Below, piece by piece: positions 2,208 to 33,200 of a stretch of DNA of 64,000 nt. Origin of the DNA: Anthostomella pinea (lineage: Eukaryota; Ascomycota; Sordariomycetes; Xylariales; Xylariaceae); the NCBI GenBank assembly GCA_963556695.1, contig CAUWAG010000020.1, forward strand, positions 1,240,001-1,304,000, read 5' to 3'. The notes beneath the pieces were generated by a model. That model saw nothing but the letters and a program-made list of their open reading frames with translations, searched no databases and was not told the DNA's origin. The position numbers were made by a program, and so were the translations under genes. Every line of letters begins with the position of its first letter. Position 1 is the stretch's first letter.

Positions 2208-2744
2208 CGATGCCCTCACTTGCGTTCAGTTGTCTAACTCATTTCAACTCCGTCTCATTGCCTCACTCCCTTCGTCTAACAGTCACTCCGTTTCGTTTGA
2301 TCTCCCTCCGGTCAATGACTACGTTCCACTTCGTCTGGTACGGTCGTCCCTCCCTTCCTTCCTTCCAGTCAGTGTTGGTCTCCCTCCGGTCGCCATGTCT
2401 ACCGTTGTTTGACTACTTGGTTGTGGGTTCTATTGTCTACTCGTCACTTGGTTTAAGTTTGTTTAGTTTGTTCAAATGACTCGTTGAGTTCATTGTCTAG
2501 TATTATCTATTGTCCGGTCGCATTGCTCCCTTGTTGTTCCATCGTCGTTACACTCCTCTTCCACTCACCCTGTTCGTCTACCGTAACTTCGTTCCTGTGG
2601 TCGGTCCCCTCCCCATCTCCCTTATGGTCGATGACCGCTCCGCTAGCACACTCCGTGTGGTTCACTCCGTTCACTGTTTAGTTCTATTGTCTATCTATCT
2701 AATTATCTAGTTCAATTGATTAATCGTCTAGTCGCCCGAGTTTT
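2208..2744 (+). repeat. Truncated leftmost module (module 0)
   Basis: The array starts abruptly at about 2208 inside the region that normally follows the origin-like hairpin (ccctcacttgcgttcag, also at 14001). Only the micro-hairpin tract remains, running up to the first GC box at 2745. No hairpin or gene is left. Confidence 0.7.
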
Positions 2745-4672
2745 GAACTGGTTCACTTCGTTCACGCGTCACGGGGCGGGCCCCCCGTACCCCCCTCTTT
2801 CCACAATTCAATCGGGGTGGTGTTGTTGGTACTCTAGTTACGAGGGGAAGAGGTCTATTAGGTCACTGAGTCTATTCATGCCGGGGTGATCCCAACGTTC
2901 TCCTGTTCCTTCCTGTTGTCATGGTCATCCTACTCAGTCTTCTATGTACCCTAGTAAAGTCTCATAAGGTCTAGTCTATTCATGTCTAGTACCCTCTGTA
3001 TCAGGCAGCCAAGCTCGTCTTCGCTATCTATCTATCTTATTATGTCACCTTGTAACAAAAGAAACCTGTCTAAGAGCAAGACTAAAAGACACACCACCTT
3101 GCTATGAAAGAAGATAGCACACATCTTATCATGTCCCCACCACTTCTATTCCTCCCCTGTCTCAGCTGTAACCGTGTTCCGTTGCCTCATCGGCCGACAA
3201 GACAAAGTGTTGACAACCTTGTTGTGCCCGACAACCTCGGATCCAGTCCTCCCAGTTCTCCATCACCGTCGACACCACACGGCCCTCATAGCCCTGCGCC
3301 TCCAAACGCAGCTTCCACACCTCCTTGTAGCCCTCCGCGGGGTAGAGCAAGAGGAACGGGATCCCTTCTGACACTAGAAAGTCCCGCACCTCCTGATGCG
3401 AAGGCAAGACAAGAATGTCCCACTCCTCCTTGAGCGACTCGACAATCGCCCGGCCATACCGCTCCATCCAGTTCTCCTGCTCCGCTCCATCGGCTGCCCA
3501 CCGAAACAAGGGCGAATCCAGCTCCACCGCCTTGAAGTCTGTCTGGGTAAATAACGCCTCCGACTTCACCCCGGGAAAGGCAGAGACCACCAGTCCGCTA
3601 CGGGCCGCATCCTTCCACGCGTCCACCACATCCACCCACTTCTCCAAAGGCAACAACTCACCACCCATGGTGTACAAGTATTACACAATCTCTCTTACAA
3701 CATACCGTCGTTCGTTCAACGAAAAGAGGACGACAAGTCAAAGATGAACAGCACTGTTCAAAAAGAAGGATGAGAGGAAGAGAACCCATTCTGTCTCCCA
3801 AATGCGCGCATCACTGCTAGTTGTATTCCATTTCAAGTTCGGGCTGACACCTTGTCTGCCCCGATGCCTCTCATTCGTTCGGTTGGTGATCCAGTCCGGC
3901 CGCGAGCGACCTCTCTGTTTATTGGATGGCCCGGTGCACGGGCCTTATGTGTCCAAATACAGTGTTGTCAAGCTTTTCCAAAGTTATCCCCACTGTTACT
4001 CTACCTCACTTTCCTTACAGTCCAGTGGGTAAAGAGAAGTCATCTACACCGTTCGCGGGTGCTATCGCACGGCTTTTGGTCAAAGGTCCAGCATAAAGTA
4101 AATTATAGGTTTGCGGGAGTCAACTCCCTGTTATGCTGGAATTACTCTTCGAGTTCACTTCGTGATGGCCTCACTTGGGTTCGTCTGTTGGGTCATTTCA
4201 ACCCCGTCTCATTTGATCAACTCCGTTTCTCTTCCTTCGTTCCACTACGGTTGTCAGGCACTCCGTGCCTTCTACGGTCCTTCCAGTCCCTTTGACTACG
4301 CTCCGCTTCGTCTCATCGTCGCTCCGCTCCTCATGTTTCTATTGATTTCATTTGTTTACCTCGTCACTCTTTGGTTTGATTTGTTTGGTTGAGAGTAACT
4401 CGTTGAGTTCATTGTCTAAGTCTATCTATTGTCCGGTCGCACTGCTCCCTTTGTTGGTTCCACGTCGTTACACTCCTCTATTACTCACCTTGTTCGTCAA
4501 CCTCGCTGTCGCTCCTCCATTCCTCCGTCACCCCACTCCGTGTATCTCACTTCGTTCGACTGCTCCGCTACACTCCTCCGTCGTGGTTCCTTCCAGTCAC
4601 TCATGTTTAGTTCTATTCATTGTCTATCTAGTATTGTAGTTCTATTGTCTAACAGTATCTCGCCCGAGTTTT
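2745..4672 (+). repeat. Module 1 (1928 bp): P-loop kinase-like gene
   Basis: GC box 2745-2812; gene on the minus strand at 3162-3668; CGGG-type hairpin 3928-3944; GTGC/GCAC hairpin 4059-4070; origin-like hairpin (CCAGCATAA/TTATGCTGG) 4088-4139 with inner hairpin GGGAG/CTCCC; micro-hairpin tract about 4145-4670. Confidence 0.8.
3162..3668 (-). CDS. P-loop kinase-like protein with damaged Walker A
   Basis: The 168-aa product resembles the intact P-loop protein of module 10. Both share the order: phosphate-binding loop, an LDS/LDLDSS acidic segment, an (I/V)LV(P/S)(S/T)H motif, then EVR/DVR..L...G, a YP/VPQPE segment, W..R..A.G, and a W.DW(I/L)..C end. This order fits phage and cellular P-loop nucleoside/nucleotide kinase-like proteins (inference). 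The loop here reads AFPGVKSEAL: one glycine of the expected GxGKS is missing, so ATP binding is doubtful. The ATG at 3668 is used rather than the in-frame TTG at 3677. The coding strand has a pyrimidine-rich leader upstream, as in the other modules. It is either a degenerating copy or a non-catalytic paralogue. Confidence 0.6.
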   Translation of the reverse strand: MGGELLPLEKWVDVVDAWKDAARSGLVVSAFPGVKSEALFTQTDFKAVELDSPLFRWAADGAEQENWMERYGRAIVESLKEEWDILVLPSHQEVRDFLVSEGIPFLLLYPAEGYKEVWKLRLEAQGYEGRVVSTVMENWEDWIRGCRAQQGCQHFVLSADEATEHGYS

Positions 4673-4740
4673 GAACTGGTTCGCTGCGCTCACGCGTCAC
4701 GGGGCGGGCCCCCCGTACCCCCCTCATTCCACAATTCAAT
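4673..4740 (+). other. GC-rich box exemplar
   Basis: 68-bp element present once per module. It begins GAACTGGTT, contains a micro-hairpin (TCGC-TGC-GCTC type), then CGCGTCACGGGGCGGGCC, then a C-rich run, and ends near CCACAATTCAAT. Copies start at 2745, 4673, 6629, 8628, 10564, 12558, 14521, 16493, 18397 (cut), 25551, 27735 (partial), 29649 and 31598, and inverted at 19367, 21581 and 23495. It is the most conserved stretch of the element and lies at the 3' end of each gene, so it could hold a terminator, a recombination site or a replication signal. Confidence 0.75.
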
Positions 4741-4988
4741 GGGAGGTTGGGTGGTTGGTACTCTAGGGAGGAGGAGAAAGGTCTACTACCTGCGCATGTC
4801 ACTTACGACTTCAGAGACGGAAACAGAAGAACAAGTTTGGTTTGACTAGTACCTTCACATTCAAACCACAAGCACGGCATACAAAGTCGATCTCGAAACC
4901 CCGTCGCTTTTTCTCATAGCCTACCGATTATTCCTGCTTCTCTGTGTCACCCAGTGCCTCCAAGGACCCTATACAACATTGTCATGGC

Positions 4989-5387
4989 TCATCGCCCAGC
5001 ACCCCGTACATCTCTCCCCTGTCTCACAAGGTTAGTAACTGCGATACTCGCTAGTAGACTACTCCGCACCCTCTCTCTCCTAAGAACAAAACACATAAGA
5101 CGTACCTTGCCGTCGCCAAACACAATGGCTCCCACCCCTGGCAAGTGACATAACCCCACCCCGAGGTTAAAGGCCCGTCGAAAATTCGAGCGGAAGAGGC
5201 CGGTGTGTGCTTCCAAGCTGTGAGGGCACCCCTGGTTATGCACCCAGTAAAATGTCCTCCGGTTCGGCACATCTCCCAAGTCTTCTACCGTACAGAGACA
5301 ACCCTCGGGCACGGCCCATCCTGTCCCCGTTTCTGTCGCTATCGCTGTCGTTGTCGTGTCGGTGGGGTTGGAAGAGGACGCGGCCAT
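4989..5387 (-). CDS. Hypothetical protein of module 2
   Basis: Unrecognised. The ATG at 5387 opens a 132-aa frame with a Thr/Ser-rich N-terminus (about residues 1-22), then a compact-looking segment containing TFYWVHNQGCPHSLEAHTG and LPGVGAIVFGDGK. A GTACGT donor follows GDGK, and an ACTAAC branch-like site plus CAG lies 87 bp later (intron 5019-5105). Splicing would keep the frame and give about 103 aa. Intron use cannot be decided by eye. A second minus-strand frame upstream (5562-5846) contains a hydrophobic run but has no support as a gene. Confidence 0.4.
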   Translation of the reverse strand: MAASSSNPTDTTTTAIATETGTGWAVPEGCLCTVEDLGDVPNRRTFYWVHNQGCPHSLEAHTGLFRSNFRRAFNLGVGLCHLPGVGAIVFGDGKVRLMCFVLRRERVRSSLLASIAVTNLVRQGRDVRGAGR

Positions 5388-6050
5388 CTTGTCACGTCAC
5401 ACCTAGTCTGGCCCTAGCCAACGATCAGCACACCATGCTTCATTCAACCTGTGCCAATCAACCGGTCAAGCCGACCGTCTTCCAGGCCAACAAGGGCCAC
5501 TCGCTCCCCTGCAGCGTCAAAAGGCTACGTACCGGCAGAATGGTTCAGTCGACCAAGTCCACTATCGACGCGCTGCTTTGATCCCAGCCACAAACAGATC
5601 CGATCTATTACCAGACCAACACGTTCTGATGATCAGAATACTACTTCGTAGAGAAAGCGTTGTCCCAACGAGTGCCACCACAAGCCAAGTGTTGAAGAGG
5701 AAAAGAAGAAGAGAGAACAGGACACTAGCCCCAAGGAAGCGGGGCAACCCACTCATTTTATGTTCCCCAGAACAGACGATGTCCATGTACAGCCCCCCCC
5801 CGCGCTGTCTCCCGTCCTGACCAATCAGTCCATTCGGGGCCGACACTCTGCGTCACCCCCCCACATCACTCCGTACCGTCGTTCTTATTGGAAGGTCCTG
5901 AGCACAGACCATATTGGACTAAAAACAGTGCATGCAAACATTCCATTTTTTGTTCGCACATGTTCACTAACTAACTTGCACTGCGTTCCAGTGGGTAAGT
6001 GGTAGAATCCACCGTTCGCGAGTATGTTCATACGGCTTTTGGTCATGATT

Positions 6051-6102
6051 CCAGCATAAAGTAAATTATAGGTTGGCGGGTGTCAACACCCTGTTATGCT
6101 GG
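6051..6102 (+). other. Origin-like double hairpin, type I exemplar
   Basis: Stem CCAGCATAA/TTATGCTGG, extendable to 12 bp with flanking ATT/AAT. It encloses AGTAAATTATAG and then an inner hairpin GGGTG-TCAA-CACCC. Further type I copies: 4088, 8031, 9975, 11929, 13923, 15899, 17819 (plus orientation) and 20019, 22184, 23870 (inverted). The AT-rich invariant motif on the 5' side recalls the nick-site nonanucleotide of rolling-circle replicons, but this is inference. Confidence 0.6.
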
Positions 6103-6628
6103 AATTGCTCTGTCTCACCTGTTGGTGATGGCCTCACTTTGGTTCGTGTGATTCATCTCCGTCCCACGTCAATTAGTTCGACTCCGTCTCCCCTACTCCG
6201 TTCCACTTCGTCTACGGTCATTCCACTCCCTCTTCGTCACTCCGTTCCTCTACTTCCCTCCGGTCAGTGTAGTCGTCGCTCCGCTCCTCCCCTTCTAGTT
6301 GTTGGTTTACTTCGTGGGTGGGTTCCGTCTATTACCTCGTCACTTTGTTTTGTTTAGTTGTTTGTTACGTGACTCGGTTGATTACTCGTCTATTTGTTCT
6401 ATCTACGGTCGCTACGCTCCCTTGACCACCATGTTCAATTGATTCCACTCCGTTGCACTCCTCTACTACTCACCCGGTTCGATGGTCGGTCCCCTCCCCT
6501 ACCGTCCCTTCGGTCCTGTCTACTCCGTAGTATCACTCCGTGATGTTCACTCCGTTCACTTGTTGTTTCAATTCATTTATTATCTATCTAGGTAATTCAA
6601 TTGATTAAGCATATCTCGCACATGTTTT

Positions 6629-8627
6629 GAACTGGTTCGCTGCGCTCACGCGTCACGGGGCGGGCCCCCCGTACCCCCCTTTTTCCACAATTCAATGGGA
6701 GGTTGGTTAAAAGGCAGAGGAGATACATTCAATCTAGACAAACTAACTAAAGAAACTAAAACCGCCCGTGCAAGGACAGTCGCACATTCTGAACAATACC
6801 AAATGTATCCTGCGGCTTCCCTGATCCCATGTTCCCCGCCATCTCGACTACAGGCCGTACACCACAAAATAAGACACACTCGTCTTCAATGGACTCCGCA
6901 AGCCCATAATTGCCCACCGGTCCTACCATCACCTGCTTCTCCATGGTCCAGCAGAGGCGAACGGTGTCCTTCACCCGCGTATCCGAGACCGAGGCATTGC
7001 CAGCCTTTCGTTGTAGTCCGTACGCAGCCCGGCCTTGATGCATCCGTGCCTTGCCTCCGTTGATGCGCCCTTCGCAACGCTTCACATAAGGCGACCCATG
7101 ATTAGACAACACCGCCCCAAACAGGGACCCATCCCGCGCAGGCGCCAACAACACACCAGCGGCCAAGGTGGCCACACGTTCATGATGAATACGCATCATC
7201 ACCCGCTTCTGATCCGGGTCCTCTCCACCGACCCCCATCTGAAAGTGACCGTTCGTCACATCGACCGAGACAGACGGAAAACCCGCAGACTTCACCACAC
7301 AAATGGAGAAGAACTCACACTCTGCCGCATGTAAGAGATCGAGTTCTAAGACAACCTTGGTAACAAAAGCAGTCGTCTTCCCAGAAGAGCCCATGGCCGC
7401 CCGCAACACAACAGACACAGGTACCTCAAAATAGTTCTCACCCACCCCGTCCCCATACGAGTAAAAGGGCAAGGGCAGGTCCCCATCGACCACCACCTTC
7501 TGTACCTGACCGTACTTGCGCTCCAACGCCAGTCTGTCCACCTCGACCTTCATCTTTCTCACCATCGCTGACGAACCAGTCGCCCTGTGAGCTCCCTTGC
7601 CATTCCATCGCCTCTTATACACAGTCGACCGACCCCGTCGAGGGGTATACCTACGTCCCTTGCCGCGTGCATAGGACCGACTCCGTCCGCGTTGTTGATA
7701 GTACGCCATTCTACTTTTCCAAAGAATGAAGAAGAGAAGGAAGGAACACCACTGTTCGGCGCATCACTGCTACTAGTACTCCGTTTCGGGTGTCCACCCC
7801 GTTTGTGTTGGGGCCGACAGGTGTCAGCCCGGATGAGGTCATCTGTTCCCGGTGGTCACGATGGACTGAGGGTCCCGGTGCACGGGCCATATTGGACTAA
7901 ATACAGTGTAGTCAAGCTTTTCCAAAGTTGTTCCCACTGTCACTCTACCTCACTTCCACTGCGTTTCAGTAGTTATAGTATGTCATCTGATCAGTGCGCG
8001 GGTGCTATCGCACGGCTTTTGGTCAAGATTCCAGCATAAAGTAAATTATAGGTCCCTCCGTGCAACTCCGGGTTTATGCTGGAATTGACTGCGTCTACAC
8101 TTCGTGATACCCTCACTTTTGGTTCGTGTGTCTAATCTCCATTCCATTTCAATGTATTTCCTTCCAGTCCATTGATTCCACTCCGTTGCATCTATCAGTC
8201 GTTCCACTCCTTTGATCGGTCGTCCCTCCCTTGCCTTCGCTCTGCTCAGTGTGTCTCCCTCCGGTCGCCATGTCTACAGTTGTTGATTACTTCGTGGTTG
8301 GGTTCAGTTGTTTGTCTCGCTACCGTGGGTTTAATTGATTTGTTTCGGTAGCTCAACAGTCTATTACATTTGGTCTAAGTCTATGTACGGTCACTTCGTT
8401 CCCTTCACCTCTCGGTTGGGTTGATGGTTCCACGTCGCTGTCGCTCCTCCATTCCTCCGTCACCACACTCCGTGGTCTCTCCCTATCGGTCGACCGCTCC
8501 GCTCCACTCCTCCGTCGTAGTTCACTCCGTTCACTTATTGTTTCTATTCATTCAGTATTCTAGTGTTTGGTTCTATTCATTATCTATCTATTTATTCTAT
8601 TGTCTATGTTGGTAGGGCACATGTTTT
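6629..8627 (+). repeat. Module 3 (1999 bp): capsid-like gene
   Basis: GC box 6629-6696; minus-strand gene 6756-7709, the longest ORF in the array; hairpins with CCCG/CGGG and GTGC/GCAC stems around 7880 and 8010-8022; origin-like hairpin 8031-8082; micro-hairpin tract to 8627. Confidence 0.8.
6756..7709 (-). CDS. Candidate capsid protein, Arg-rich N-terminus
   Basis: The 317-aa product starts at an ATG just below a pyrimidine-rich leader. Residues 1-45 hold about 15 Arg/Lys with Tyr, Ser and Gly, in the style of the DNA-binding arm of CRESS-DNA virus coat proteins. The rest alternates short hydrophobic beta-like strands (for example FYSYGDGVGENYFEVPVSVV and FFSICVVKSAGFPSVSVDV) with loops, and length and layout suit a single jelly-roll capsid (inference; no direct family match was made). 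The frame is uninterrupted from ATG to stop with no visible intron. It is one of the longest genes in the array and nearly fills its module. Alternatives are a ribosomal-like or other basic nucleic-acid-binding protein. Confidence 0.5.
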   Translation of the reverse strand: MAYYQQRGRSRSYARGKGRRYTPRRGRSTVYKRRWNGKGAHRATGSSAMVRKMKVEVDRLALERKYGQVQKVVVDGDLPLPFYSYGDGVGENYFEVPVSVVLRAAMGSSGKTTAFVTKVVLELDLLHAAECEFFSICVVKSAGFPSVSVDVTNGHFQMGVGGEDPDQKRVMMRIHHERVATLAAGVLLAPARDGSLFGAVLSNHGSPYVKRCEGRINGGKARMHQGRAAYGLQRKAGNASVSDTRVKDTVRLCWTMEKQVMVGPVGNYGLAESIEDECVLFCGVRPVVEMAGNMGSGKPQDTFGIVQNVRLSLHGRF

Positions 8628-10563
8628 GAACTGGTTCGCTGCGCTCACGCGTCACGGGGCGGGCCCCCCGTACCCCCCTCTTTCCACAATTAAATCCTGA
8701 GGGGTTCAGTTGGTACTCTAGGGAGGAGCAGTCTACTACAAAAGAGGCTATCACCAGTATTAAGTCCGTCCAGTGCGGTTTTCATGTCATATTTATACAC
8801 AAAGTTGATCAGATCATCATATATAAGTAGATACTACAGTAAAGTCTCACCCATTAAAGAAATACTCTTTCCTAGGCAGTCGTACCTACACCCGGCTCGA
8901 ACCCCTCACCATCTATCCTACCTTCGACCTCATGATCCAAACAGAACCGGTCCAAGTCAAACCACTGCGACACGTCCACAACCGCCTCGTCCCTCTCTGT
9001 CTCTATCTCTGTTCCTTCCCATAACAAACAGTCCTGTAAGTCAAGAGTATCGGACGCCGTCAGACAACGCGGGTCTACTAGCTTCGCCATCAACGACTCC
9101 GCCAATGACCAGGGAGACACCTGTCCCAAAGGACTCGACTCCTCCAGGCCCAGCTTCACTCGGTTTTCCTTGGTCATCACAGGATATGGTTCGGCCATCC
9201 TCCGCCAAAACATCCATGGCTCCTCCCATCCATCCGGGACGCACAATGCAAAGCCTGCCGGTAAACTGTCCATGCTCCGCTCCAAGTCTACTCCCTGTTC
9301 CGGATGACACACCGCATAACAATAGGCCGAGGCACTATTCGCTAGAAGGCAGTACAGAGTCCCCCTTGGACAATGGCTCGTCACCCACGAACCCAACGAT
9401 TCCCCAAAAGGCGTCAACACACAATAGAAAGGACCACTCCTGGCCCCATCGGACAGCTCAACATCGCTCAAGAGAGGCCCTGTTGCCTCCACCACCTCTG
9501 GCATCACCATCCTCACAAGATTCAGTGTCTTACCACGCACTCCTGCTTGTAAGTAATAACCCAATAAATCAAGTGACGTTCTAAGTCATATAAAAGTACC
9601 CGCCGGTACACCTACCAGTCCTGTCGGAGAGTAGCACAATCTGTCATCCAACAGAGGGTAAGAAAGAGGTAGTCAGGAAGAACAATCCTTATTCAGTTCG
9701 AGCGTGCGCCCCAGCGCTACTAGTATCCCATTCCGGGCAGACATCCTGTCAGCACCATTTACCCTTGTCGGGTAGTTGTCTCTCCGGCCGCAAGCGACCT
9801 ACGTTCTATTGGAGGGCCCTGAGCACGGGCCTTTTGTTGGACTAAAAACAGTGCATGCAAACATTTCAAAAATAGTTCGCACCGTTCCACTAACTGACCT
9901 CCACTGCATTCCGGTAGTCGCCCTGTTAGAATCTCCCGTGCGCGAGTACTTTCGTACGGCTTTTGGTCAAGATTCCAGCATAAAGTAAATTATAGGTTGG
10001 CGGGTGTCAACACCCTGTTATGCTGGAATTAGTCTTCGACACCACTTCGTGATGGCCTCACTTTCGTTCAGTCTGATTACCATTTCAACCCCGTTTCATT
10101 GTCTCCGTCCCGTCGTCTAACTTCACTCCGTTGCGTTTGATTCCACTCCGTTGCATCTCTACGGTCGTCCCTCCCTCTGCTTCCCTCCGGTCAGTGTTGG
10201 TCTCCCTCCGGTCGCCCTGTCTTGTTGAGTTCAGTCTATTACCTCGTCACTTTGTTTTGTTTAGTTGTTTGTTACGTGACTCGGTTGATTACTCGTCTAT
10301 TTGTTCTATCTACGGTCGCTACGCTCCCTCTATCTATCTCACGATGTTGGTTCCACCTCCCTTTGGTCGTCTACTCACCCGGTTCGTGTATGTCGCTGGC
10401 GCTCCTTGGGTCACTACCGTTCCTCTACTCCCTATCGGTCGACCGTTCCACTCTCCCACTCCGTGGTTGTTCCTCCGTCACAGTTCCTTCCAGTCACTTG
10501 TTGTTTCTATTCATTATCTAGTTTACATAGTTCAATTGTCAATGTTGGTAGGGCACATGTTTT
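8628..10563 (+). repeat. Module 4 (1936 bp): unknown gene
   Basis: GC box 8628-8695; minus-strand gene 8872-9510; GGCCC/GGGCC hairpin near 9817-9833; GTAC/GTAC hairpin 9946-9957; origin-like hairpin 9975-10026; micro-hairpin tract to 10563. Confidence 0.8.
8872..9510 (-). CDS. Hypothetical protein of module 4
   Basis: Unrecognised, about 212 aa from the ATG at 9510. The frame stays open to 9564 (TTG), so an upstream exon or a longer form is possible. The protein is acidic in its C-terminal third (EGTEIETERDEAVVD) and has Cys and Trp scattered throughout, with no transmembrane segment. Near the end, GAGCCGGGT is followed by GTAGGT, the same donor hexamer used by the module 5 and module 8 introns, so a 3' exon reading into 8700-8830 may exist. 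Confidence 0.45.
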   Translation of the reverse strand: MVMPEVVEATGPLLSDVELSDGARSGPFYCVLTPFGESLGSWVTSHCPRGTLYCLLANSASAYCYAVCHPEQGVDLERSMDSLPAGFALCVPDGWEEPWMFWRRMAEPYPVMTKENRVKLGLEESSPLGQVSPWSLAESLMAKLVDPRCLTASDTLDLQDCLLWEGTEIETERDEAVVDVSQWFDLDRFCLDHEVEGRIDGEGFEPGVGTTA

Positions 10564-12557
10564 GAACTGGTTCACTTCGTTCACGCGTCACGGGGCGGGC
10601 CCCCCGTACCCCCCTCTTTCCACAATTCAATCCTAAGGGGTGTTGTCGGTTAATCGTATCTTGCGAGGGGAAAGGCATCACATAAGGTCACGTCTCTATT
10701 TCGTCTACGTAGTACACTCCCATGTCTCCCGATCATACACACACGCCCCGGCATTCAACGAAGCCTTCATCTGCGGGAAGAATACAGCGAACCCCTTCCG
10801 GCTTGCCTCCCTCTCGTCACTCACCTCCATCTCGTCTCCCGGTACATCACTACACAGAATTAGTTCCATCTCTTCCACACAACATTCCATCAGTACCTAC
10901 CCTGGCAAAGCAGGACGTTGACTGTCTTGCACATGACCATGCAGGTCACAACGGAGGACCCAACAATACCGGTCCAGCGTCTTCCGAAACCAATATGTCA
11001 CCTCGTCCCCAGCCTCGTCCCCATCGCCCACAAGACACCGCCAGCCAACATACTTGGCCGTCAAGCCCGCCACATCCACGGCTGTCACCCCCGAGGGAAA
11101 CCAACCCCGTCGCTCTACAAAGCTCATACGCGGGAACAGAGAGACAATGCGCCCGACGCCCGTGATATAGTTGCCCACCAACGTGCCGTAAATACGACTC
11201 AGTAACACCTCCTCCACAGGTCGTTGCAACTCCACCAAATGGATCACGCGCTGGGACAGGTCCCCCTTCACCAGACACACCCTACGCTCCGCGCGGACAG
11301 ACGCCCACTCCCCTATGCGGTGACGACAAGCATACGGGTTTAAGCGGTACCCCGACCGAGTCAAGAACAGCGCCAGCGCACCCCTCGCCTTGTACCCATG
11401 ACAGAGCACATCGAGAATAACGGCCCGGGGCCGCAAGCGTAACGACTCCTTCCACTCCCCCGCCATAAACGAGACAACATCGGCTCCCGTCACGACAGCA
11501 CCTGCTCGCTTCAACTCATGTAAAAACGAGGCCAGAGACAGACCAAACGTCTGCACAAATGCGGCCAGGTCCAACCCCTCACCGGTAAACATAGCATGGG
11601 CAGCTGCCATGGTACTCATATTCATCTAATGAACAGAAAAGAGGAAGAAAGAGAGAACTATCAATAGTGCGCGCCCCCTCGCTTATCTACCCCGTTCGTT
11701 CAGTCGGTGCTGACAGCCTGTCTGCCCCCTTTCAGTATGAGTCACTCCGTACCGTCGTTCCATTGGTAGGTCCGGTGCACGGGCCATATTGGACTAAATA
11801 CAGTGTAGTCACGCATTCCATTTGTTATCCCCACTGTCACAGTACCTATCCTCCGTTACACTTTGGGTGGTACAGTAATGTCATCTGATCAGTGCGCGAG
11901 TGTTGGCACACGGCTTATGGTCATGATTCCAGCATAAAGTAAATTATAGGTTGGCGGGTGTCAACACCCTGTTATGCTGGAATTAGTCTTCGACACCACT
12001 TCGTGATGGCCTCACTTTCGTTCAGTCTGATTACCATTTCAACCCCGTCTCATTTGATTTCATTCCATTCATCTAACTTCACTCCGTTGCGTTTGGCCCT
12101 CAGTCCCTTCGGTCTACAGTCACTCCGTTCCTTTGATCGGTCGTCCCTCCCTTTCCTTCGTTCCACTCAGTGTTGTCGTCGCTCCGCTCCTCTAGTCTAC
12201 AGTTGTTTGATCACTTGGTCGTGGGGTTCAGTTGTCTGATCGTCACTCTTTGGTTTTAATTGTTTTGTTTGAGTGACTCTAGTAAGCACGTTGTCTAAGT
12301 CTATCTAGTTGACGGTCGCACTGCTCCCTTTGATGGTTCCACGTCGCTGTCGCTCCCTGGGTCACTCTGTTCCCCCATCGTCCCTTCGGTCCTCATGCCT
12401 CCCTACCGGTCGTCTAGTCACTGCCGTTCCTCTACTCACTTCGTTCGACCGCTCCACTGCACACTCCGTGTGGTTCGTTCCACTCACTTGTTGTTTGGTT
12501 CAATTGTCTATCTATCTAGTTTAGTTCCATTGTCTAACAGTATCTCGCACATGTTTT
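10564..12557 (+). repeat. Module 5 (1994 bp): nucleotidyltransferase-like gene
   Basis: GC box 10564-10631; two-exon minus-strand gene 10705-11625; GGTCCG/CGGGCC hairpin near 11775-11791; GTGT/ACAC hairpin 11900-11911; origin-like hairpin 11929-11980; micro-hairpin tract to 12557. Confidence 0.8.
10705..11625 (-). CDS. Nucleotidyltransferase-fold-like fungal protein
   Basis: Two exons (11625-10901 and 10849-10705) separated by a 51-bp intron (GTAGGT donor, ACTAAT branch, GTGTAG acceptor) give 289 aa. The pattern, with gaps, is GAVVTGADVVSFM, a later ILDV segment, ALALFLTRSGYRL, VIHLVELQRPVEEVLLSRIY, then GNYITGVGRIVSLFPRMSF. It follows the layout of widespread fungal hypothetical proteins with a nucleotidyltransferase-like fold, where GS, DLD and FHST..MN motifs occur at these places. 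Here the GS is GA and the paired aspartates are not obvious, so catalysis is doubtful. Exon 2 ends in a Cys/Trp motif (CVYDRETWEC). The assignment comes from pattern memory and is uncertain; the intron is well supported by frame continuity. Confidence 0.5.
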
Positions 12558-24529: not shown

Positions 24530-24665
24530 TCGAGTGCGCCAGCACGACACGAGTGAAGAGAGGACCCTGTCGATAGCAACCCAGCATCAATAAAAAAGGT
24601 TTGTGCCCGCAACCCAGTAGTGCAGAGGAAGCAGTGTTTCTACGCAATAAAAAGAATGAGTAAAA
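24530..24665 (-). ncRNA. Putative structured non-coding RNA (copy 2)
   Basis: About 40 bp (from GTCGAGTGCGCCAGCACG) is nearly identical to 30574-30614, followed by the two CAACCCAG boxes. The closing hairpin is weaker here (TTTCTA-CGCAA-TAAAAA). Upstream similarity to module 16 continues for about 150 bp and includes the shared GGTCGCGGGCTCCCTA. Confidence 0.4.
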
Positions 24666-25003
24666 GAAGAAGAAGAGAGGAACTTCAGAAATGGGCATTC
24701 CATTCTACTAGTATTCCATTGTTCGTACATGACTCACTGTTTGGTCCATGATATCCGTACAGGACCCAGTGCTGTCTCCCATTCGGTCGTTTAAGAGTGG
24801 ACCTTATGTCCGGCCACAAGTGACCTACCAACTAGGGTCCGTAGTCGAATCGTGCTGTGTTAGTGGTCCATCCTTCCGTCCGCCCCCATCACTCCCACCT
24901 TTCAGTCGTTCATTGGCCTGACCTCCGTTGCACTCCGGTAGTCCCGTACACAGTTTCTCAAGGGCAGTGCGCGAGTACTGTCGTACAGCTGTTGCTCGTT
25001 GAT

Positions 25004-25054
25004 CAAGCTATTAAGTAAATTATAGATGATAGGCGTCCCGCCTAGAATAGCTTG
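25004..25054 (+). other. Origin-like double hairpin, type II exemplar
   Basis: Stem CAAGCTATT/AATAGCTTG around the same AAGTAAATTATAG motif, with inner hairpin TAGGCG-TCC-CGCCTA. Other copies start at 27206, 29103 and 31042. Stem bases differ from type I at most positions, yet pairing is kept. Confidence 0.6.
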
Positions 25055-25550
25055 AGAACACTAACACGAAATCCTGTTAGTCATCCACTGCTCCCACGCA
25101 GTTGTTCCGGGCTCCCCCCAGAAGATAATCCGTCATCCTTCCGGTTGGTCAGCCCCCCGGTCTTCTACACCCACTCCGTGGTTGTTACCGTCACTCCGTT
25201 CCTATGCAGTCGTTCCACTCCTGTGCATCCTTGGTTGCTTATTGTCAGAAAGTCTGTCTGTGGTTCCAGTTGGAGATCGTCACTCTTTGGTTTGATTTGG
25301 TTTGAGTTGTTTTAATTGAGTGACTCTACTAATGGTGAAGGGTAAGAGTACTATGTGTGTTGACGGTCGCGGTGCTCCCTCTATTCCTAGTCACTTTGTT
25401 CTATAGTCGGTCCCCTCCTCTACAGTCCCGTTGGTCCTCTCTACTCCGTAGTGTTCCTCCGTCACCGTTCGTTCCACTCACTTGTTGTTGCTATGTAGTC
25501 ATTATCTTAGTTATATAGTTCAATTATTTAATCTAATCATGGCAATGTTT

Positions 25551-27734
25551 GAACTGGTTCGCTGCGCTCACGCGTCACGGGGCGGGCCCCCCGTACCCCC
25601 CTTCTTTCACAATTCAATGTGAGGTGGTGTTGTTGATAAATCGTATCTACGGGTGGAAAGAAGTCGACTATAAGGTTAAGCTAGTGAAGAGTTTCAGACA
25701 ATACACGGGTACAGGCACAGCACAGCACAGCATGACACAAACAAGTTGCTACGAAGCAAAGGTACATTACTACACCACTTCTTTCCTATCGTTATCTATT
25801 GAGGCCCTAGTCCTCACAGTAGGTAAAGTCCTCATCAGCCACATCGTCAAACTAGATCCATTCCACCCCGGGTCCGACCTACCGTCGCGGAATCGCTGCC
25901 TCTATACCACCACTAGGCAGTACTGAAGGGGTAACTACACCAGCCGGCTTCCGTATCAAGGCACGCTCGTCCCACTCCATCCCCCTTGTCACGATGCGTA
26001 AATAGGATGAGGACATAAAAGTCCTGATTGCACTACCTACGTGTAAGAATCTCTTGGTGGGGAGGGAAAGAAGGATCTGACCCGCCAGCCCATTCTGGTA
26101 GGATTAATGATCCTTCCATCCGCCCCACTATTACCTAGCCTAGTACAGTTGTGGCCACACGTCTTGTGCGCCAGGTCATGTGATGCTGCGCACAGGCCAC
26201 CCTAATGGGTTGACAGACTTCCAGAAGGTCAGACCGTCACACCCCTTACCGCCTTCCTACGTGGATCCAGCTTCGCCTGCCAGGCCAAGAACTTCTTGTT
26301 ATATAGACAGTTGCCCAAGGCATCACCAAAGAGGCGAAGGGTCCTCTTCAACGCGTCTGTCTGCGCTTCCTTGATGGCATGTTCCTCGGCCTTGCCCTTG
26401 CTCGCCCGTTTCATTGCGTTCCTACTCCCGCTATCCTCATGGTACGTCACCTTTGCCGTGTCCGCCCACGTCACTGTCACCCGGATGGTACACGATGCAG
26501 CACCAGTCCACCGTTCCCTCGGGTCATAGACAGCCTCACACCTCTGCTGCTTGATCTCCGACGACCAGTTCTCATGGCCAAACACCAGGTTTGCCAACCC
26601 AATCGCGTCACTGCCGCTCAGATACGATAATTGCATCCCGCCTGGTCCCTTGCGTGTCGAAATGTACTCCGGCCCCAGTGGCATGGACAACAGAGACAAC
26701 ACCTCATCCAACGTCCGTCTCCTCTTGCTCCCATCGATCCACCTACTAACGTCCCCTCCGAGACCCTTCTCCTCTTCACCCAGTCGTTCCCGCTTCATAG
26801 GCATGTTGTCCAACACGAAATAATCAATCGTTCCCACCTATTGTGTCCATAAATTGACCCAATAATAATCACATTCATCCGATGAAAGAAAGAGGAAGTC
26901 AGGAAGAACAATCCTTCTTCTGTTTGAGTGCGTGCCCCCGTCTACTAGTATTCCATCTATTGTGGTTCTGTCCACGACATTTGTACAGGACAGTCAAGTG
27001 TGACTCACTGCGTTCGTTTATTCGTACCGGACAGGGCCGGGTAGGGAAGCAGCTGTGTCATTGGTTCGTTCCCACTCCCCTTGCCCAGCACCTTCTCTTC
27101 GTTTTGGTTGGGTCGGAAGCCCTGTCGCTGGCGCTCCATGTCCCAATGTACACAGTTTGATCTTACAGTGTCGCGAGTACTATTGTACGGCTTTTGCTTG
27201 TTGATCAAGCTATTAAGTAAATTATAGATGCTAGGCATCCCGCCTAGAATAGCTTGAAAATATTAACACGAAATCCTGTTAGTCATTTACTGTTCACACA
27301 CAGTTAATCCGTCGTCCCTCCAAAAGATAATCTGATTTAATCGGCTTCCCTTCACTCCGTTCCGTGTACTTCCCTTCGGTCCGTCGTCCTTCCAGTCCGT
27401 ACGTCACTCCGTTCCTTTGGCCTCCCTCCGGTCGGGTGTCCCCTGTTGATTCAGTTGGGTGAGTGTGGGTTGTAGTGCAGTCTGTAGTATCGTCACTCTT
27501 TTGGTTTGAGTTGTGTTGATTGAGTGACTCAAGGGGTGCACTGATGTAGTATGTCTGTTGACGGTCACTACGTTCCCTTGGTGTTCTACCGTCCCTTTGG
27601 TCCTTACTCACTCTGTTCGATTAGTCGTCACTATGTTCCTCATGACTCCGTCACCACCTTCCAGGTGTATGTTCTCTCTGGTCACTTGTTGTTGCTATTC
27701 TGTGTGTATCTATCTAGTTTGGTTGTTCTATTGT
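25551..27734 (+). repeat. Module 14 (2184 bp): Rad52-like gene
   Basis: GC box 25551-25618; no clear gene in 25619-26228; minus-strand gene 26229-26804; GTAC/GTAC hairpin near 27176-27187; type II origin-like hairpin 27206-27256 (one inner mismatch); micro-hairpin tract to 27734. Confidence 0.8.
26229..26804 (-). CDS. Rad52/Rad22-family single-strand annealing protein
   Basis: The 191-aa product is essentially one Rad52 N-terminal domain (residues about 30-175), which forms oligomeric rings that bind single-stranded DNA and anneal complementary strands. Visible family signatures are LGPEYISTRKGPGGMQLSYL (43-62), ANLVFGHENWS (71-81), IRVTVTWAD (107-115) and KEAQTDALKRTLRLFGDALG (145-164), followed by NCLY. 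Host Rad52 carries a long C-terminal Rad51/RPA-binding tail that is absent here, so this is a domain-only form like those in phages and some mobile elements. The ATG at 26804 is used; the frame is open to a GTG at 26837. No intron is visible. In this element it could help recombine or circularise units (inference). Confidence 0.85.
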   Translation of the reverse strand: MPMKRERLGEEEKGLGGDVSRWIDGSKRRRTLDEVLSLLSMPLGPEYISTRKGPGGMQLSYLSGSDAIGLANLVFGHENWSSEIKQQRCEAVYDPRERWTGAASCTIRVTVTWADTAKVTYHEDSGSRNAMKRASKGKAEEHAIKEAQTDALKRTLRLFGDALGNCLYNKKFLAWQAKLDPRRKAVRGVTV

Positions 27735-29648
27735 GCCCTCCGTACCCCCCTTCTTCCACAATCTAATCCTGAGTTGTGTTGTTGGGTAAGTTGGGAGGGA
27801 AGGAAGGCATCACAGAAGGTCATGTCGACTTTATTCCCTTGTTATAAGAGTATCCATGTCAATTGACTCTATATGATCGACTACGCACTCCCTCAAGACA
27901 AGGAGGATTATAATACAGCACACAAGTAGAAGCGCCCGCAGTACCAACTCGGCGCCCCTATCACCTCAAAGCACGATGGCAGTACAATACCCATTCTATC
28001 CATATGAAGAGGATATCCTTCTCTCTATATGATACACTTACACTTCTTGCTCTAGCCTCTCCTGAGACAGAATTAATCTCTTTTTCCATTATATACCACC
28101 TATCTGACATGACGGGTCATATGATACAACATTCTTGGGCAAGTGATCACAAATGACTGGGCAAAATAGGCTCACGCTGCCACGATCCCGTTCCATGTTC
28201 CTTGCCTCCACACCTGTGCCTAGTACCCTTCCCGGAATGACAAGAGGCAACACCTCCTCCTGCTCCTCTTCATCTTGTACATTGACCAATGCCTGATTCT
28301 GTCTCTCCACCTCTCGTGCCACCGCTATGGCCAAGTCGCGCTCCCTCCGCAGCTTATCCTGTTTGTGTTGAAAGAATCCATAGCGTACCTGTCCTATCAT
28401 CGTTACCACGATTCTCTATAGAAACAGAGGAGGAACCAACTCTATAGGGATCAAGGCCCAGGGCCATACAACATACCTCTACAGGACCGGATCGTACCGT
28501 AGTGTACCCATTATGGCCACCAAGCACCATCCCATACTGTTCTATCCTTTCCCCAACACAAGCGTTTATAGGCAGCGCTGCCTCGACTGTTGGCGCCATG
28601 ACACGCCCTGACAGATAGGTACAGACTATGCACAACATAGTCAATACTACAAGAATCGTACCGACGCCTTCCAATGCCACTCAAAACAAAATAGTCGAAA
28701 TAGCACCAGTCACCTTCCCTAAACAAATTACGTCTCTGACACTTTGTATTATCAAAAAATAAATAAAAGAAAAGGAAGAAGAGAGGAATTGTCCATAATG
28801 GGCCCCCTGGTGCTTTACTATTCCATGGTCTGTTTGTACAGGACCGTCAGTACAGGATGCAAAGTCGATACTCACTCGTTCGCTTAGGTATAGATCCACG
28901 TCTAGCCGGCAAGCGACCTCCCGATTGGTCCTAGGGAAGCAGCTGTGTAGTCCGTCCCATCGTCCGACTGTCTTATTGGGCCCAGCAACTTCTCTTCGTT
29001 CCGGTTGGTTGATCGTTGGACCTCCCCTACGGTCTGGTATTGATGTACACAGTTTGATCTTACAGTGGCGCGAGTGTTGGCACACGGCTTTTGCTTGTTG
29101 ATCAAGCTATTAAGTAAATTATAGATGATAGTCGTCCCTCCTAGAATAGCTTGAAAACACTAATATAAAATCCCGTTAGTCATCCACTGCTCCCACGCAG
29201 TTGTTCCGGGCTCCCCCCAGAAGATAATCCGTCATCCTTCTGGTTGGTCAGCCCTCCAGTCTTTTACACCCATTCTGTGGTTGTTACCGTCACTCCGTTC
29301 CTTTGTCCTCACTCCGTTCGTCCCGCATCTTTGGTTGCTGTTGGGTGAGTGTGGGTTGCAGTGCAGGTTGGATATCGTCACTGCTGTTTGAGTTGTGTTG
29401 TTTGAGTGGCAGTGACTCTTGGGTGCACAGTTGAAGAGTAAGAGTACTATATCTGTTGTACGGTCGTGATACTCCCTTGGTGTTCTACAGTCCCTTTGGT
29501 CCTTTGTCCTTCCAGTCCCTCGTCGGTCCCGTCCTCATCGCTCCGCTATACTCCTCCGTCGTCGTTCACTCTGTTCACTGTTTGTTTCAGTTCATTCTGT
29601 AATTTAGTTTGGTTGTTTAATTGATTATGTTAGGGAGGCACATGTTTT
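27735..29648 (+). repeat. Module 15 (1914 bp): membrane-protein gene
   Basis: Partial GC box 27735-27767 (5' half lost); minus-strand two-exon gene 28089-28638; GTGT/ACAC hairpin near 29073-29084; type II origin-like hairpin 29103-29153; micro-hairpin tract to 29648. Confidence 0.75.
28089..28638 (-). CDS. Single-pass membrane protein of module 15
   Basis: Exon 1 (open to 28680, first in-frame ATG at 28638) ends at 28477 with GTATGT. The acceptor TTTCTATAG lies 61 bp on and exon 2 runs 28415-28089; splicing joins the two frames without a stop. The N-terminus is a hydrophobic segment (VGTILVVLTMLCIVCTYLSG in the longer reading), which suggests a signal anchor. Exon 2 has a basic helical stretch (QHKQDKLRRERDLAIAVARE), an acidic patch and a Cys-containing end. 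The first in-frame ATG cuts into the hydrophobic segment, so the true 5' end may be an upstream exon or a non-AUG start, or it may be mutated. No family recognised. Confidence 0.45.
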
Positions 29649-31597
29649 GAACTGGTTCACTGCGCTCACGCGTCACGGGGCGGGCCCCCCGTACCCCCCT
29701 TTTTTCCGGAATCTAATCCTAGGTTGGGTGGTTGATAAATTGTATCATGGAAGACAAGTCTATAAATGGCATTCTATTCACAGTCACTCCATTTCTCCTA
29801 TTGATTATTCAAGTGTGAGGCTACTAAGATAAATCTAGTCTACTGTAGGAGTGATCCAAGTTGTGGCTCGACTACGCAGTGTTGAGTGCGGGTGGCGGTC
29901 CCCCTTCCTCTATCTAACATTCCCATTCATTTCACTATAAAGTCAAGACCACTCAGTCTCTCGAGTCCCTCGCCGTCTAGTTTGGTTATAAGGGAAAGCA
30001 CAACCCCCGTGTCCTAAGCACTGTCCTACACAAGGTAGTCGAGAGGGAAGGCACGCCAGTACTAGCTCCCAACCCTAAAACCTTATTCAAACCTTATTTG
30101 AACCTTATTTCAACCATGGATCGGTCCATGAGGGCATCTCTCCTGTGAGGTGGGTACAAGGAGTACAAAGACAATACAAGCCATCATTGCCGTCGTAGCA
30201 GTGTCGAACCCTCTCTTACTGGTCCCCCCTCTGGTCCTTCCTTGCTGGTGAGACGCACCGCTCTGTCCGAGCATTTAAAAACCTCCCCCATCTTCCTACG
30301 TATTGTACCCAACTGACTAGACAATATCCTTGTCCCAGGAGCGTAGTCAAAAAGAGAGAGACCTATCTGATTACATCGTACCTATTCCGTCTGTTCATCA
30401 CTCCGTTTGCTCGTCCCTCGTTCGGTTGGCTGTGGCGGGCTGTGGATGTCGTCGGTCGCGGGCTCCCTAGTCCTTCTAGTCAGTCTATCTATCGATCAGT
30501 CAGTCCTTTCATTCCATTCATCCAATCAAAACAAAACCATTCTTGTTCCTTCTACGTTCTTGTCAAACGGAGGGAGTCGAGTGCGCCAGCACGACACGAG
30601 TGAAGAGAGGACCCTGTCAATAACAACCCAGCATGAATAAAGAGTTTGGGCGTGTAACCCCGTTATTCAGCAGAAGCAGTGCCTCTGCGCAACAGAGGAT
30701 AAGAAGAAGAGAAAGAGAGGAACAATCATTATTCGGGCATCACTGCTATATCACTCCATTTGTCTGTTGGTTCAGGACCCATCTGTACAGGACAGTAGTG
30801 GTGACTCACTGCGTTTGTTTAGTGGTACCGGACAGGGCCGGGTAGTGGGAGCAGGCTGTGTCCTTAGGTCTGTCGGTCCCTCTGCCCCTATCATTCCCTC
30901 TCTTTGTTCGGTCATGGGCCCAGCACCTTCTCTTCGTTTTGGTTGGGTCGGAAGCCCTGTCGCTGGCGCTCCATGTCCCGATGTACACAGTTTGAGATCA
31001 ATAGTAAGACTGGTGTTGGCACACGGTTTACGCTCGATGCTCAAGCTATTAAGTAAATTATAGATGATAGTCGTCCCTCCTAGAATAGCTTAAGAACACT
31101 AACACGAAATCCCGTTAGTCATCCACTGCTTCCACGCAGTTAATCCGTCGTCCCTCTAAAAGATAATCCGATCCAATCGGCTTCCCTTCACTCCGTTCCG
31201 TGTACTTCCCTTCGGTCCGTTAGATCAACTCCGTCTCTCTACAGTCACTCCGTTCCTGCGACTCCCCCTGGTCGTCATGCATCCTTGGTTGCAGTTGGGT
31301 TCCCGTCTGGGGTAGTGCAGTTGGGTATCGTCATTGTTGAGTTAGTGGTGTGGTTTGCAGTGACTCTACTAATGGTGAAGTGTAGTCGTAGTAGTATGGT
31401 CGGTCGCGATACTCCCTTGGTGTTCTACAGTCCCTATCGTTCCTTGGTCCTTCCAGTCCTCTATCTCACGATGTTCGATGACCGTTCCACTGGATCACTC
31501 CGTGATGTTCCTTCCAGTCACAGTTTGTTAAATCTTTGGTGTAGTGTAGAGAGAGTCAAGGTAGTTCTATTGATTATGTTAGGAAGGCACATGTTTT
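29649..31597 (+). repeat. Module 16 (1949 bp): no ORF, structured element
   Basis: GC box 29649-29717; no credible ORF in 29718-30573 (contains repeated aaaccttatt-like words near 30078-30115); structured element 30574-30722; type II origin-like hairpin 31042-31092 (last stem base mismatched); micro-hairpin tract to 31597. Confidence 0.75.
30574..30722 (-). ncRNA. Putative structured non-coding RNA (copy 3)
   Basis: Same element as in modules 6 and 13. The hairpin here is CCTCTG-CGCAA-CAGAGG, keeping the CGCAA loop while one pair changes from A-T to G-C relative to copy 1. This is the best evidence that the fold matters. Confidence 0.4.
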
Positions 31598-33004
31598 GAA
31601 CTGGTTCACTTCGTTCACGCGTCACGGGGCAGGCCCCCTGTACCCCCCTTTTTCCATAATCTAATCCTAAGGTGGTTAGTCGATAAATCGTATCTACGGA
31701 ACAAGAGTCTAGTATCACTAAGTTGAAATCTACTATCATAATGCCTTTATTACCAAGAAATATGAAGGCCTACTGCCAGTTCATAACGATAAAACCACTG
31801 CATATCTTGTTCATTCACAACTATCTCATCCCACTATACCAACCAGTACGGGATGGAAAAAGAATGCTTCTTCTATGACCGTTCCTCTCTCTATGACCCT
31901 CCCCGATGGCCTGGGAGCATCCACCAAGACGGGCCACGCCTATTCAAGCGTGAACAGAAGCCTGATGAATACAGCTCTCCGAATACCAACCGCCGCTGTT
32001 GCACCAGTTCTACTTCCTGTTCCCGTTCTCGTTCCTCTCTCCCATCCGCACCGGACAAGGGCGATATGAAGCCCGCCAAAGTAAACCTGTCCTGCACAAG
32101 CGAGACAACATCATGCCGGCGTCCCCTCCAGTCGTGCACCTCCTCTCGTTCAATAAGCTCCATCCATGATCGCCCCGGCATCACTACCCGTGCAAAGAAA
32201 GACCGCCTCACAAGGTCCGACAACGACCTCCCTGGCTGTGGAGGAACGAATACCGAAAAAGAGAAACAGACAACCCCTCCCGGGATGCCAAAGACGAGGC
32301 CCATCTCCGGAAAGACACAGCACTCTATTGTACCTGGCTCCTCCACCATGAGCCACAACCGGGCACAAATCTCATCCACCTCGTCCCTTGACCGAAACAA
32401 GCCAACAGCAAAACAGGACTGCGTATTGTCAGTACCCTCTACAGCACCGTCGTTCACCTCTTGTCGCGGACCTTCCCGTCGTGCCAACAACTCTAGGTAC
32501 AAAGAATGCATCTTGTCCTATTCCATAACAAACCTATTCATGCTTTCATGTCTCAGATAGTGTATACCGGGGCGCGTATCATCATGACCTTGGATCTTGC
32601 TCACCAAGTCTGTTGAGTCTGTCCAACACGCCGTGTCTATCCAAAAAGGAGAAGAGGAGGAGAACAATCCATCGTTCAGAAAAGTGCGTGACCCCGTCTC
32701 TATCTATTCCATTCTCTGTCCTGTACCAACAGTCCTGTACCGTTGGGAGGGGGGCATGCTCGTTGGACTCGCTTAGTTGGCCGGACAGGTGCCCGGTTTA
32801 GTGGGAGCCAGGGCTGTGTAGTATTGGTCAGTCGGGCCCTCCTTCATTCCTATCCAGTCATCCATGGGGTTCCGTGCCGTCCCCTTCCCTCACTACGTTC
32901 CGTCATTCGTCGACAGCCCCTCCGCTACGCTCTGGGTGTCCCGATGTACACAGTTTTGACCATACAGTAACGCGAGTGTTGGCACACGGCTTTTGCTTGT
33001 TGAT
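31598..33004 (+). repeat. Module 17 (truncated): unknown gene
   Basis: GC box 31598-31665; minus-strand gene 31891-32511; GTGT/ACAC hairpin near 32974-32985; the module is cut at 33004 exactly where the origin-like hairpin should begin (gcttgttgatca). Confidence 0.75.
31891..32511 (-). CDS. Hypothetical protein of module 17
   Basis: Unrecognised 206-aa protein from an ATG at 32511. A mixed alpha/beta-looking N-terminal half contains MGLVFGIPGGVVCFSFSVFV. The C-terminal half is highly charged (GREEREREQEVELVQQRR) and ends basic. No intron or membrane segment is obvious. Layout below a purine-rich tract supports it as the gene of this module. Confidence 0.5.
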   Translation of the reverse strand: MHSLYLELLARREGPRQEVNDGAVEGTDNTQSCFAVGLFRSRDEVDEICARLWLMVEEPGTIECCVFPEMGLVFGIPGGVVCFSFSVFVPPQPGRSLSDLVRRSFFARVVMPGRSWMELIEREEVHDWRGRRHDVVSLVQDRFTLAGFISPLSGADGREEREREQEVELVQQRRLVFGELYSSGFCSRLNRRGPSWWMLPGHRGGS

Positions 33005-33200
33005 CATGTAGCGGAGCGGTCGACCAAAGGGAGATACCACGGAGTGGTGTGGACGGAGTCAGGGGAACGGAGTGACTAGGGGAGCGACAGCGACGTGGAA
33101 CCAACATCGTGAGATGGAACAACAAGGGAACGGGAGTGACCGACTACTAGATAGACTTAATCAATCGAGTCACTTGAACAAACTAAACAAGCTTAAACCA
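33005..33200 (-). repeat. Inverted micro-hairpin scrap at right edge
   Basis: About 195 bp in opposite orientation, matching the micro-hairpin tract of other modules (for example ccacggagtggtgtggacggagtc and the TTAAACCAAGTGACGA stretch that mirrors 2446-2460). It ends near 33200, next to host-like coding sequence. Confidence 0.65.

Follow-up and report, generated by a model that had tools for sequence, protein, structure and literature searches.

Segmented mycoviruses with genomes of single-stranded DNA (ssDNA), one open reading frame (ORF) per segment and common regions exist, as the parts of PMC10731770 devoted to them describe: the segmented genomoviruses Botrytis cinerea ssDNA virus 1 (BcssDV1) and Fusarium graminearum gemytripvirus 1 have, in that account, three to four segments (~1.7 kb in BcssDV1), a stem-loop in addition to the common regions, and a replication protein (Rep) of HUH type. 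The Nanoviridae of plants have M-Rep and six to eight components of 0.9-1.1 kb, each with a single gene, that share a stem-loop region and one further region (PMC8515864). Here we analyse a stretch of 64,000 nucleotides from the fungus Anthostomella pinea, hereafter the window (C16:1240001-1304000, in a genome of 53.7 Mb and 16 contigs), which contains at positions 2208-33200 an array of units that resembles both groups in having one gene per unit and a shared stem-loop, and the genomoviruses also in its fungal host and common regions. The 15-nt mini-hairpin code of this array, and the family of arrays to which it belongs, stand firm as a real and strongly non-random system, unlike any that we have found; the open-licence literature yielded neither such a fungal element nor such a repeated hairpin code. 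We consider it probable, though by no means assured, that the array arose as a chromosomal concatemer from a multipartite DNA element and is made up of its segments, a virus or a virus-dependent replicon being the most likely candidate for that element.

Units and folded control regions of the array

Self-comparison of the window places its repeats essentially at ~2.2-33.2 kb, and together with the GC-box family and the counts of TATAATTTACTT given below it confirms the 31-kb array with common control regions that the initial annotation had proposed; its figure of about 18 modules is fair, given 15 origin-like (ori-like) hairpins and three partial units (2208-2795, 18446-19390 and 32880-33200), which follow each other in steps of ~1.95 kb. 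Read in sense, each unit comprises a GC box and some 500-600 nt of leader, followed by hairpin 1 (the ori-like hairpin), hairpin 2, a promoter-side stretch and one gene or none, after which comes the next GC box. The GC box, GGGGGGTACGGGGGGCCCGCCCCGTGACGCGTGA in sense orientation, has 12 copies in the window, at steps mostly of 1.9-2.0 kb. The elements of the control regions are as follows:

2208-33200: whole array, its sense orientation switching near 18446, 24305 and 33006 (minus strand at 2208-18446, plus at ~18446-24305, minus at ~24305-33006, then a leader scrap on the plus strand at 33007-33200)
2762-2795, minus strand: GC box, first of its family
4690, 6646, 8645, 10581, 12575, 14538, ~16509, ~18413, 25568, 29666 and 31615, minus strand: other copies of the GC box
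27735, minus strand: truncated copy of the GC box
23512-23545, plus strand: GC box in plus orientation, with diverged copies near 19385 and 21592
4142-4693, minus strand: example of a leader, with four perfect 15-nt mini-hairpins
4087-4141, minus strand: type A ori-like hairpin, TTCCAGCATAA-[inner hairpin]-CCTATAATTTACTTTATGCTGGA
6050, 8030, 9974, 11928, 13922, 15898 and 17818 (starts), minus strand, and near 20018, 22182 and 23868, plus strand: further copies of the type A hairpin
25004-25054, minus strand: type B ori-like hairpin, CAAGCTATT-[inner hairpin]-CTATAATTTACTT-AATAGCTTG, with further copies near 27206, 29103 and 31042
4059-4070, minus strand: hairpin 2, GTNN-loop-NNAC after AAAAGCC, covarying and present in both types of unit

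The leader is a tract of a 15-nt motif, NN-GA-NN-GNA-NN-GA-NN, in which both NN pairs are complementary, so that the 'micro-hairpin tract' annotated initially is upheld as a tract and corrected to a precise motif, far above chance. Perfect 15-mers, with four Watson-Crick pairs, occur 116 times in sense and never in antisense over 54.7 kb of arrays, in 40 sequence versions; the 168,757 bases of host DNA that were fetched contain none in either direction, and seven under a looser rule that asks for the inner pairs alone. All 58 perfect copies of the window lie inside the array and their strand tracks the orientation of the units (41 minus, 5 plus, 12 minus). The shorter pattern GA-NN-GNA-NN-GA has 290 sense matches in the arrays, with complementary inner NN in 210 against an expectation of ~1/16, while variants of the flanks or the loop give 1/21 (AG-GNA-AG), 10/33, 3/66 (AG-ANG-AG), 3/75, 6/46, 7/52 and 1/50. 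Between 2.2 and 18.4 kb there are 70 inner-complementary motifs, compared with a mean of 1.0 and a maximum of 4 in 200 first-order simulations; inner-paired copies number ~8 per unit (6-11 in this same part). The two outer pairs beyond the tandem GA are complementary in 181 and 134 of the 210 copies (expected fractions 0.33 and 0.26), and pairing further out is approximately at chance. Single mismatches in near-matches are A.G or G.A in 54 of 91 cases and G.T wobbles in 16, and on its 5' side the closing pair has C in 134 copies, T in 55, G in 20 and A in 1. High stability in single-stranded DNA is a mark of GNA triloops with a sheared G.A pair and of tandem G.A pairs; the sheared pair is typical of GNA loops according to the relevant part of PMC6479982. 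Across the units of 2208-18446, the slots of the leader switch among a few hairpin versions, giving each unit its own combination in the manner of a barcode.

Hairpin 1 has as its core TATAATTTACTT, which is present 15 times in the array of the window (8 + 3 + 4) and 26 times over all arrays, always in sense; it is absent from the antisense strand of the arrays and from 34-64 kb of the window. The GC box, the mini-hairpins and TATAATTTACTT are common to units of types A and B, which are told apart by the stem of hairpin 1. This stem is of 10 bp and near-invariant in 16 type A copies, and of 9 bp and near-invariant in nine aligned type B copies. The two stems differ at five of nine positions, both being fully complementary, and in both types TATAATTTACTT stands just before the 3' arm or runs into it. 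The retention of TATAATTTACTT and of pairing while the stem changes is what would be expected of a site of initiation or strand transfer. Covariation was evaluated in an alignment of all 16 type A hairpins with intact TATAATTTACTT (A3) and in one of nine of ten type B hairpins (A4, leaving out one copy of array C9b and a degenerate copy of the C2 array); these 25 aligned hairpins carry TATAATTTAC. Counted across the entire structures, cells changed on both sides number 12 in A3, against 4.5 after shuffling, and 9 in A4, against 2.6, values reached in none of 500 shuffles in either case, although such shuffles do not model relatedness. As to known RNAs, Rfam gave no match up to E 0.5 in positions 1-36000, and a tRNA search ruled out tRNAs.

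The same control region also matches at C9:790-800 kb (array C9a), C9:920-930 kb (C9b), C2:5593-5598 kb and C14:1184 and 1190 kb, besides a scrap at C9:540 kb. Type A units form the window array at 2.2-24.3 kb and C9a; type B units form its remainder (24.3-33 kb), C9b and the C2 array, and those of C14 are assigned to this type by similarity of the leader. A 15-nt pattern derived from the motif has 35 matches in the whole genome (two for its reversed control), 34 of which are in arrays and one in a leader scrap on the 210-kb contig C13. Over 18 GC-box intervals the unit length has a mean of 1955 nt and a standard deviation of 54, a count made without the rearranged middle of the window and without the plus half of C9a, where there are intervals of ~2.2 kb and 0.5 kb. 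Despite this uniform spacing, the longest stop-to-stop frame per cassette varies from 61 to 335 codons among 30 cassettes.

Two side observations concern these related loci. The scrap on C13 (C13:163824-163883) extends over some 70-80 nt, with three mini-hairpin matches of which two are perfect, and lacks both GC box and ori-like hairpin. A long interspersed nuclear element (LINE), encoding domains for endonuclease, reverse transcriptase and RNase H, adjoins or interrupts three of the five arrays, those of C9b, C14 and C2 (L012:5911-8481, L017:5428 onward, L015:5054-7001 and C2:5596540-5596712), as though it inserted by preference into the arrays or found refuge there.

Gene cassettes and their exchange

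The genes and an ORF-less cassette of the window array are the following:

3162-3668, minus strand: P-loop-kinase-like protein of 168 amino acids (aa), PHROG 4182, with Walker A degraded by eye
4989-5387, minus strand: orphan ORF of 132 aa, with a relative in C9b
6756-7709, minus strand: capsid-like ORF of 317 aa, isoelectric point 9.9, with C-terminal relics on C4 and C5
8872-9510, minus strand: orphan ORF of 212 aa, with an 80% identical relative in a type B unit of C9b
10897-11625, minus strand: orphan ORF of 242 aa, with a relic at C9:1008457-1008651 (58%)
12580-13553, minus strand: ORF-less cassette, no frame above 78 codons, matched by one in C9a at 92-100% identity in each 25-nt step
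14756-15541, minus strand: orphan ORF of 261 aa, no other copy found in the genome
17111-17488, minus strand: open frame of 126 codons with a weak F-box-like match, and a decayed partial copy on the plus strand at 18446-19134
20690-21067, plus strand: shortened P-loop kinase, placed in the PHROG 4182 family via an 83% identical relative, with a 176-aa relative in C9a
26229-26804, minus strand: Rad52-family protein of 191 aa
31891-32511, minus strand: orphan ORF of 206 aa, no other copy found in the genome

Two of the proteins named in the initial annotation are borne out, Rad52 by Pfam (E 2e-36) and the P-loop kinase, which is of phage type, by PHROG 4182, of which there are three versions (E 1e-37, 6e-25 and 4e-12), Walker A being degraded by eye in two. 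The F-box shrinks to a weak match below the cut-off (E 0.0027), and the nucleotidyltransferase-like protein has no match in the 29 sense frames scanned with Pfam. C3 carries another Rad52, presumably that of the host, with which the array protein shares 45% identity; elsewhere the array protein has five matches at 39-42% (E up to 1e-15), of which four are on contigs of 0.9-2.1 kb, and from these nothing follows. Relatives of the kinases amount to six metagenome matches at 30-37%. Comparison with the related copies gives dN/dS values of 0.43 for the 212-aa ORF (p 7e-4), 0.42 for the 132-aa ORF (p 6e-5) and 0.38 for the capsid-like ORF versus its relic on C4 (p 2e-4), with p values from Fisher tests on rounded counts, and of 0.58, without significance test, for kinase 1. 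Values below 1 for several ORFs indicate that these frames are, or were, real protein genes. A pyrimidine tract (18-20 in 20) within 170 nt before the start codon is found in seven of the eight genes examined, among which a TATA-like box is inconsistent.

Cassettes and control regions do not share the same history throughout. The kinase at 3162-3668 lies in a cassette of ~0.95 kb, nearly identical to one around C9:794990-795496: these kinase-2 cassettes of the window (~2900-3835) and C9a agree at 96-100% in every 25-nt step and are separated by a single synonymous change over the 168 codons, whereas the control regions on either side are mostly 60-90% identical, and the situation is similar for the ORF-less cassette at 12580-13553. 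Close to the GC box, and likewise towards the promoter, identity of the cassettes drops over some 100 nt. Units of type A house the 212-aa and 132-aa genes in the window; on C9 both genes are in units of type B. Near-identical cassettes in different control regions imply that cassettes and control regions recombine.

The relics on C4 and C5 are C-terminal parts of a 47-53% identical relative of the capsid-like protein and stand in duplicated host DNA; like the relic of the 242-aa gene, they have no control regions. They map to L025:1937-2254 and L027:9090-9329, in a segmental duplication common to the two contigs, and the C5 copy adjoins a gene with a helicase C domain. Full-length units without a frame of 100 codons are at 12608-13750 and 29699-30920 of the window and at L012:8985-10000, L013:2840-3960, L013:4776-5900 and L010:4545-5680; they may be non-coding segments or hold unrecognised spliced genes, and one of them is the cassette conserved between arrays. 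The flanks of the array in the window carry genes for glutaredoxin/thioredoxin, UstYa, multicopper oxidase, a fungal transcription factor and amylase, the UstYa-like and multicopper oxidase genes on the right (43847-44728 and 50296-51954) suggesting a secondary-metabolite neighbourhood.

Origin of the array

How could units of fixed length come to carry such different genes within the same folded frame? A multipartite DNA element fits best because uniform unit size goes together with varied genes, with one gene or none per unit, with shared stem-loops, with strand-specific mini-hairpins and with related arrays and scraps. Each circle of such an element would have measured ~1.95 kb and carried at most one gene, together with a GC box, 500-600 nt of leader, an ori-like stem-loop with TATAATTTACTT beside its 3' arm, and a promoter. 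At some stage its coding strand would have existed as single-stranded DNA, so that the 15-nt GA/GNA mini-hairpins could fold and serve as repeated signals for protein binding, strand start or packaging; the stem-loop of hairpin 1 may have been the replication origin or a site of strand transfer, and the fixed unit length may reflect packaging. The circles would then have recombined via their common regions, perhaps aided by the element's own Rad52, into mixed concatemers that were captured into the chromosome. We infer these steps from hairpin to function. That the element is a former virus is likely, if unproven. A bolder proposal, which is possible but which we put forward tentatively, is a family of highly multipartite fungal DNA viruses with ten or more segments, a single-stranded phase, no classical HUH Rep, their own Rad52 and nucleotide kinases, and ~8 tandem-GA/GNA mini-hairpins per segment that mark the coding strand, a recognition code in ssDNA of a novel kind.

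A number of observations weigh against this interpretation. In the hairpins, type A pairs changed on both sides are two, a number reached in 261 of 500 shuffles, and a given pair in the inner hairpin of type B is broken in six of nine copies. Ten of the 30 cassettes, including two short fragments, lack a frame of 100 codons. GA-flanked ANA and ANC loops are also raised in complementarity (40/88 and 18/40), so that the GNA rule is a strong preference and not absolute. Leaders fold with z values of +0.3 to +2.7 in sense and +0.7 to +3.1 in antisense, and on either strand all six have lower stability than their shuffled versions, which argues against a single strong fold of the whole leader. The energy parameters for DNA give the mini-hairpins no advantage either; these parameters also give 0 for d(GCGAAGC), a hairpin known to be stable, and so are blind to this loop class. 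The capsid-like protein has 15 K/R and no D/E in its first 50 residues and owes its label to this Arg-rich composition; no significant match was obtained in Pfam, PDB or PHROG. AlphaFold models of it reach mean confidences (pLDDT) of 32 and 29, and among 3419 word-sharing candidates from 5.8 billion proteins the one match is its own entry. The families of HUH Rep (PF02407) and geminivirus-type Rep (PF00799) are silent in the genome, but all 14 controls are silent too; the top PF00910 match, a candidate Rep-type helicase on C3, looks by eye like a host BCS1-like AAA protein. No relative emerged from scans of viral contigs or from one pattern scan of GTDB contigs. Finally, control regions diverge more than cassettes, the opposite of the pattern in nanoviruses. 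The integrated multipartite concatemer proposed in the initial annotation is sustained in part, by unit layout, shared stem-loops, strand-specific mini-hairpins and related arrays, but no replication initiator, capsid fold or relative in another genome came to light.

Alternatively, the array could be a chromosomal transposable element or satellite family, for instance a gene-capturing rolling-circle transposon, that spread by tandem duplication and gene conversion and was never a virus. All known copies are indeed in one genome, tandem arrays, inversions and decayed units are present, and the swaps of cassettes between control regions could be chromosomal gene conversion. Yet the scanned frames contain no recognisable transposase or recombinase, unit length is fixed while gene content varies by unit, the strand-specific hairpins are most easily explained by a single-stranded stage, and relics of the capsid-like and 242-aa genes occur without control regions. 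We regard this possibility as unlikely while granting it real weight. An ordinary satellite is ruled out, because the genes differ per unit. Indices of repeat-induced point mutation (RIP) in the arrays (TA/AT 0.85-1.09, (CA+TG)/(AC+GT) 0.88-1.00; flank 0.72 and 1.13) are not extreme, leaving room for mild RIP.

The identity drop at cassette edges, as if cassettes moved as units, and the purifying selection on ORFs would suit a host-domesticated array, of polydnavirus-like or integron-like kind, in which the fungus keeps and shuffles cassettes via folded recombination sites; many units, however, are decayed, truncated or interrupted by the LINE, and no recombinase is recognised in the scanned frames. 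We consider this explanation quite improbable. The mini-hairpins might instead act in RNA, the GA/GNA hairpins of a transcribed leader binding an RNA-binding protein with no need of an ssDNA stage. Tandem G.A pairs occur in RNA too, and the imposed fold of four 15-mers scores better with RNA than with DNA parameters, a further point against the ssDNA stage, although the energies do not decide between DNA and RNA. The leader, on the other hand, sits between the end of the gene and the next ori-like hairpin, G.T wobbles are much rarer than A.G or G.A among the single mismatches counted above, and the GNA triloop closed by C-G is a DNA-typical ultra-stable loop. A purely RNA role appears rather unlikely to us.

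The array and known systems

Taken as an endogenised multipartite element, the array departs from the segmented genomoviruses in its at least ten different gene cassettes, its units of ~1.95 kb, its other conserved stem-loop word and its Rad52 and kinases; the nonanucleotide of BcssDV1 type, TACTCTTCA/TACTCTTAG, has one match in all arrays, the ori-like hairpins carrying TATAATTTAC instead. With nanoviruses, to which the locus had been likened initially, it shares the layout of one gene per component and a shared stem-loop, and not the unit size, the nonanucleotide or the pattern of divergence: its units are about twice as long as nanovirus components, and the nanovirus nonanucleotide TAGTATTAC is absent from the arrays, where TATAATTTACTT takes its place. 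Size, conserved word and gene set differ, and we file the array in neither Nanoviridae nor Genomoviridae.

Bracoviruses and other polydnaviruses likewise have segments arrayed in the chromosome, which give gene-bearing circles, but in insect hosts and with much larger segments, other genes and other signals. Helitrons end in TC...CTRR with a hairpin; a Helitron-type Rep-helicase is missing from the 29 scanned frames, the genome not having been searched for it, and an integron-type recombinase is missing from them as well, with no dedicated search made for integrase or attC.

For the mini-hairpins, the nearest parallel is with the promoters of the phage N4 virion RNA polymerase, described in PMC4496689 as small DNA hairpins, with a loop of three bases, that a phage protein recognises and that owe their unusual stability to a sheared G:A pair. 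The N4 hairpins are promoters with a longer stem, whereas the hairpins of the array have stems of 2 bp with tandem G.A and number ~8 inner-paired copies in each unit. The GNA/tandem-GA DNA hairpin is familiar mainly from test-tube and phage work; if our interpretation is correct, natural selection employs this hairpin repeatedly, as a structural code, and the array represents a group of virus-like DNA elements whose one-gene segments outnumber those of the nanoviruses and of the segmented mycoviruses compared here. Because the motif is short and confined to one strand, any fungal assembly or metagenome can be searched for it by script, and the idea is directly testable.

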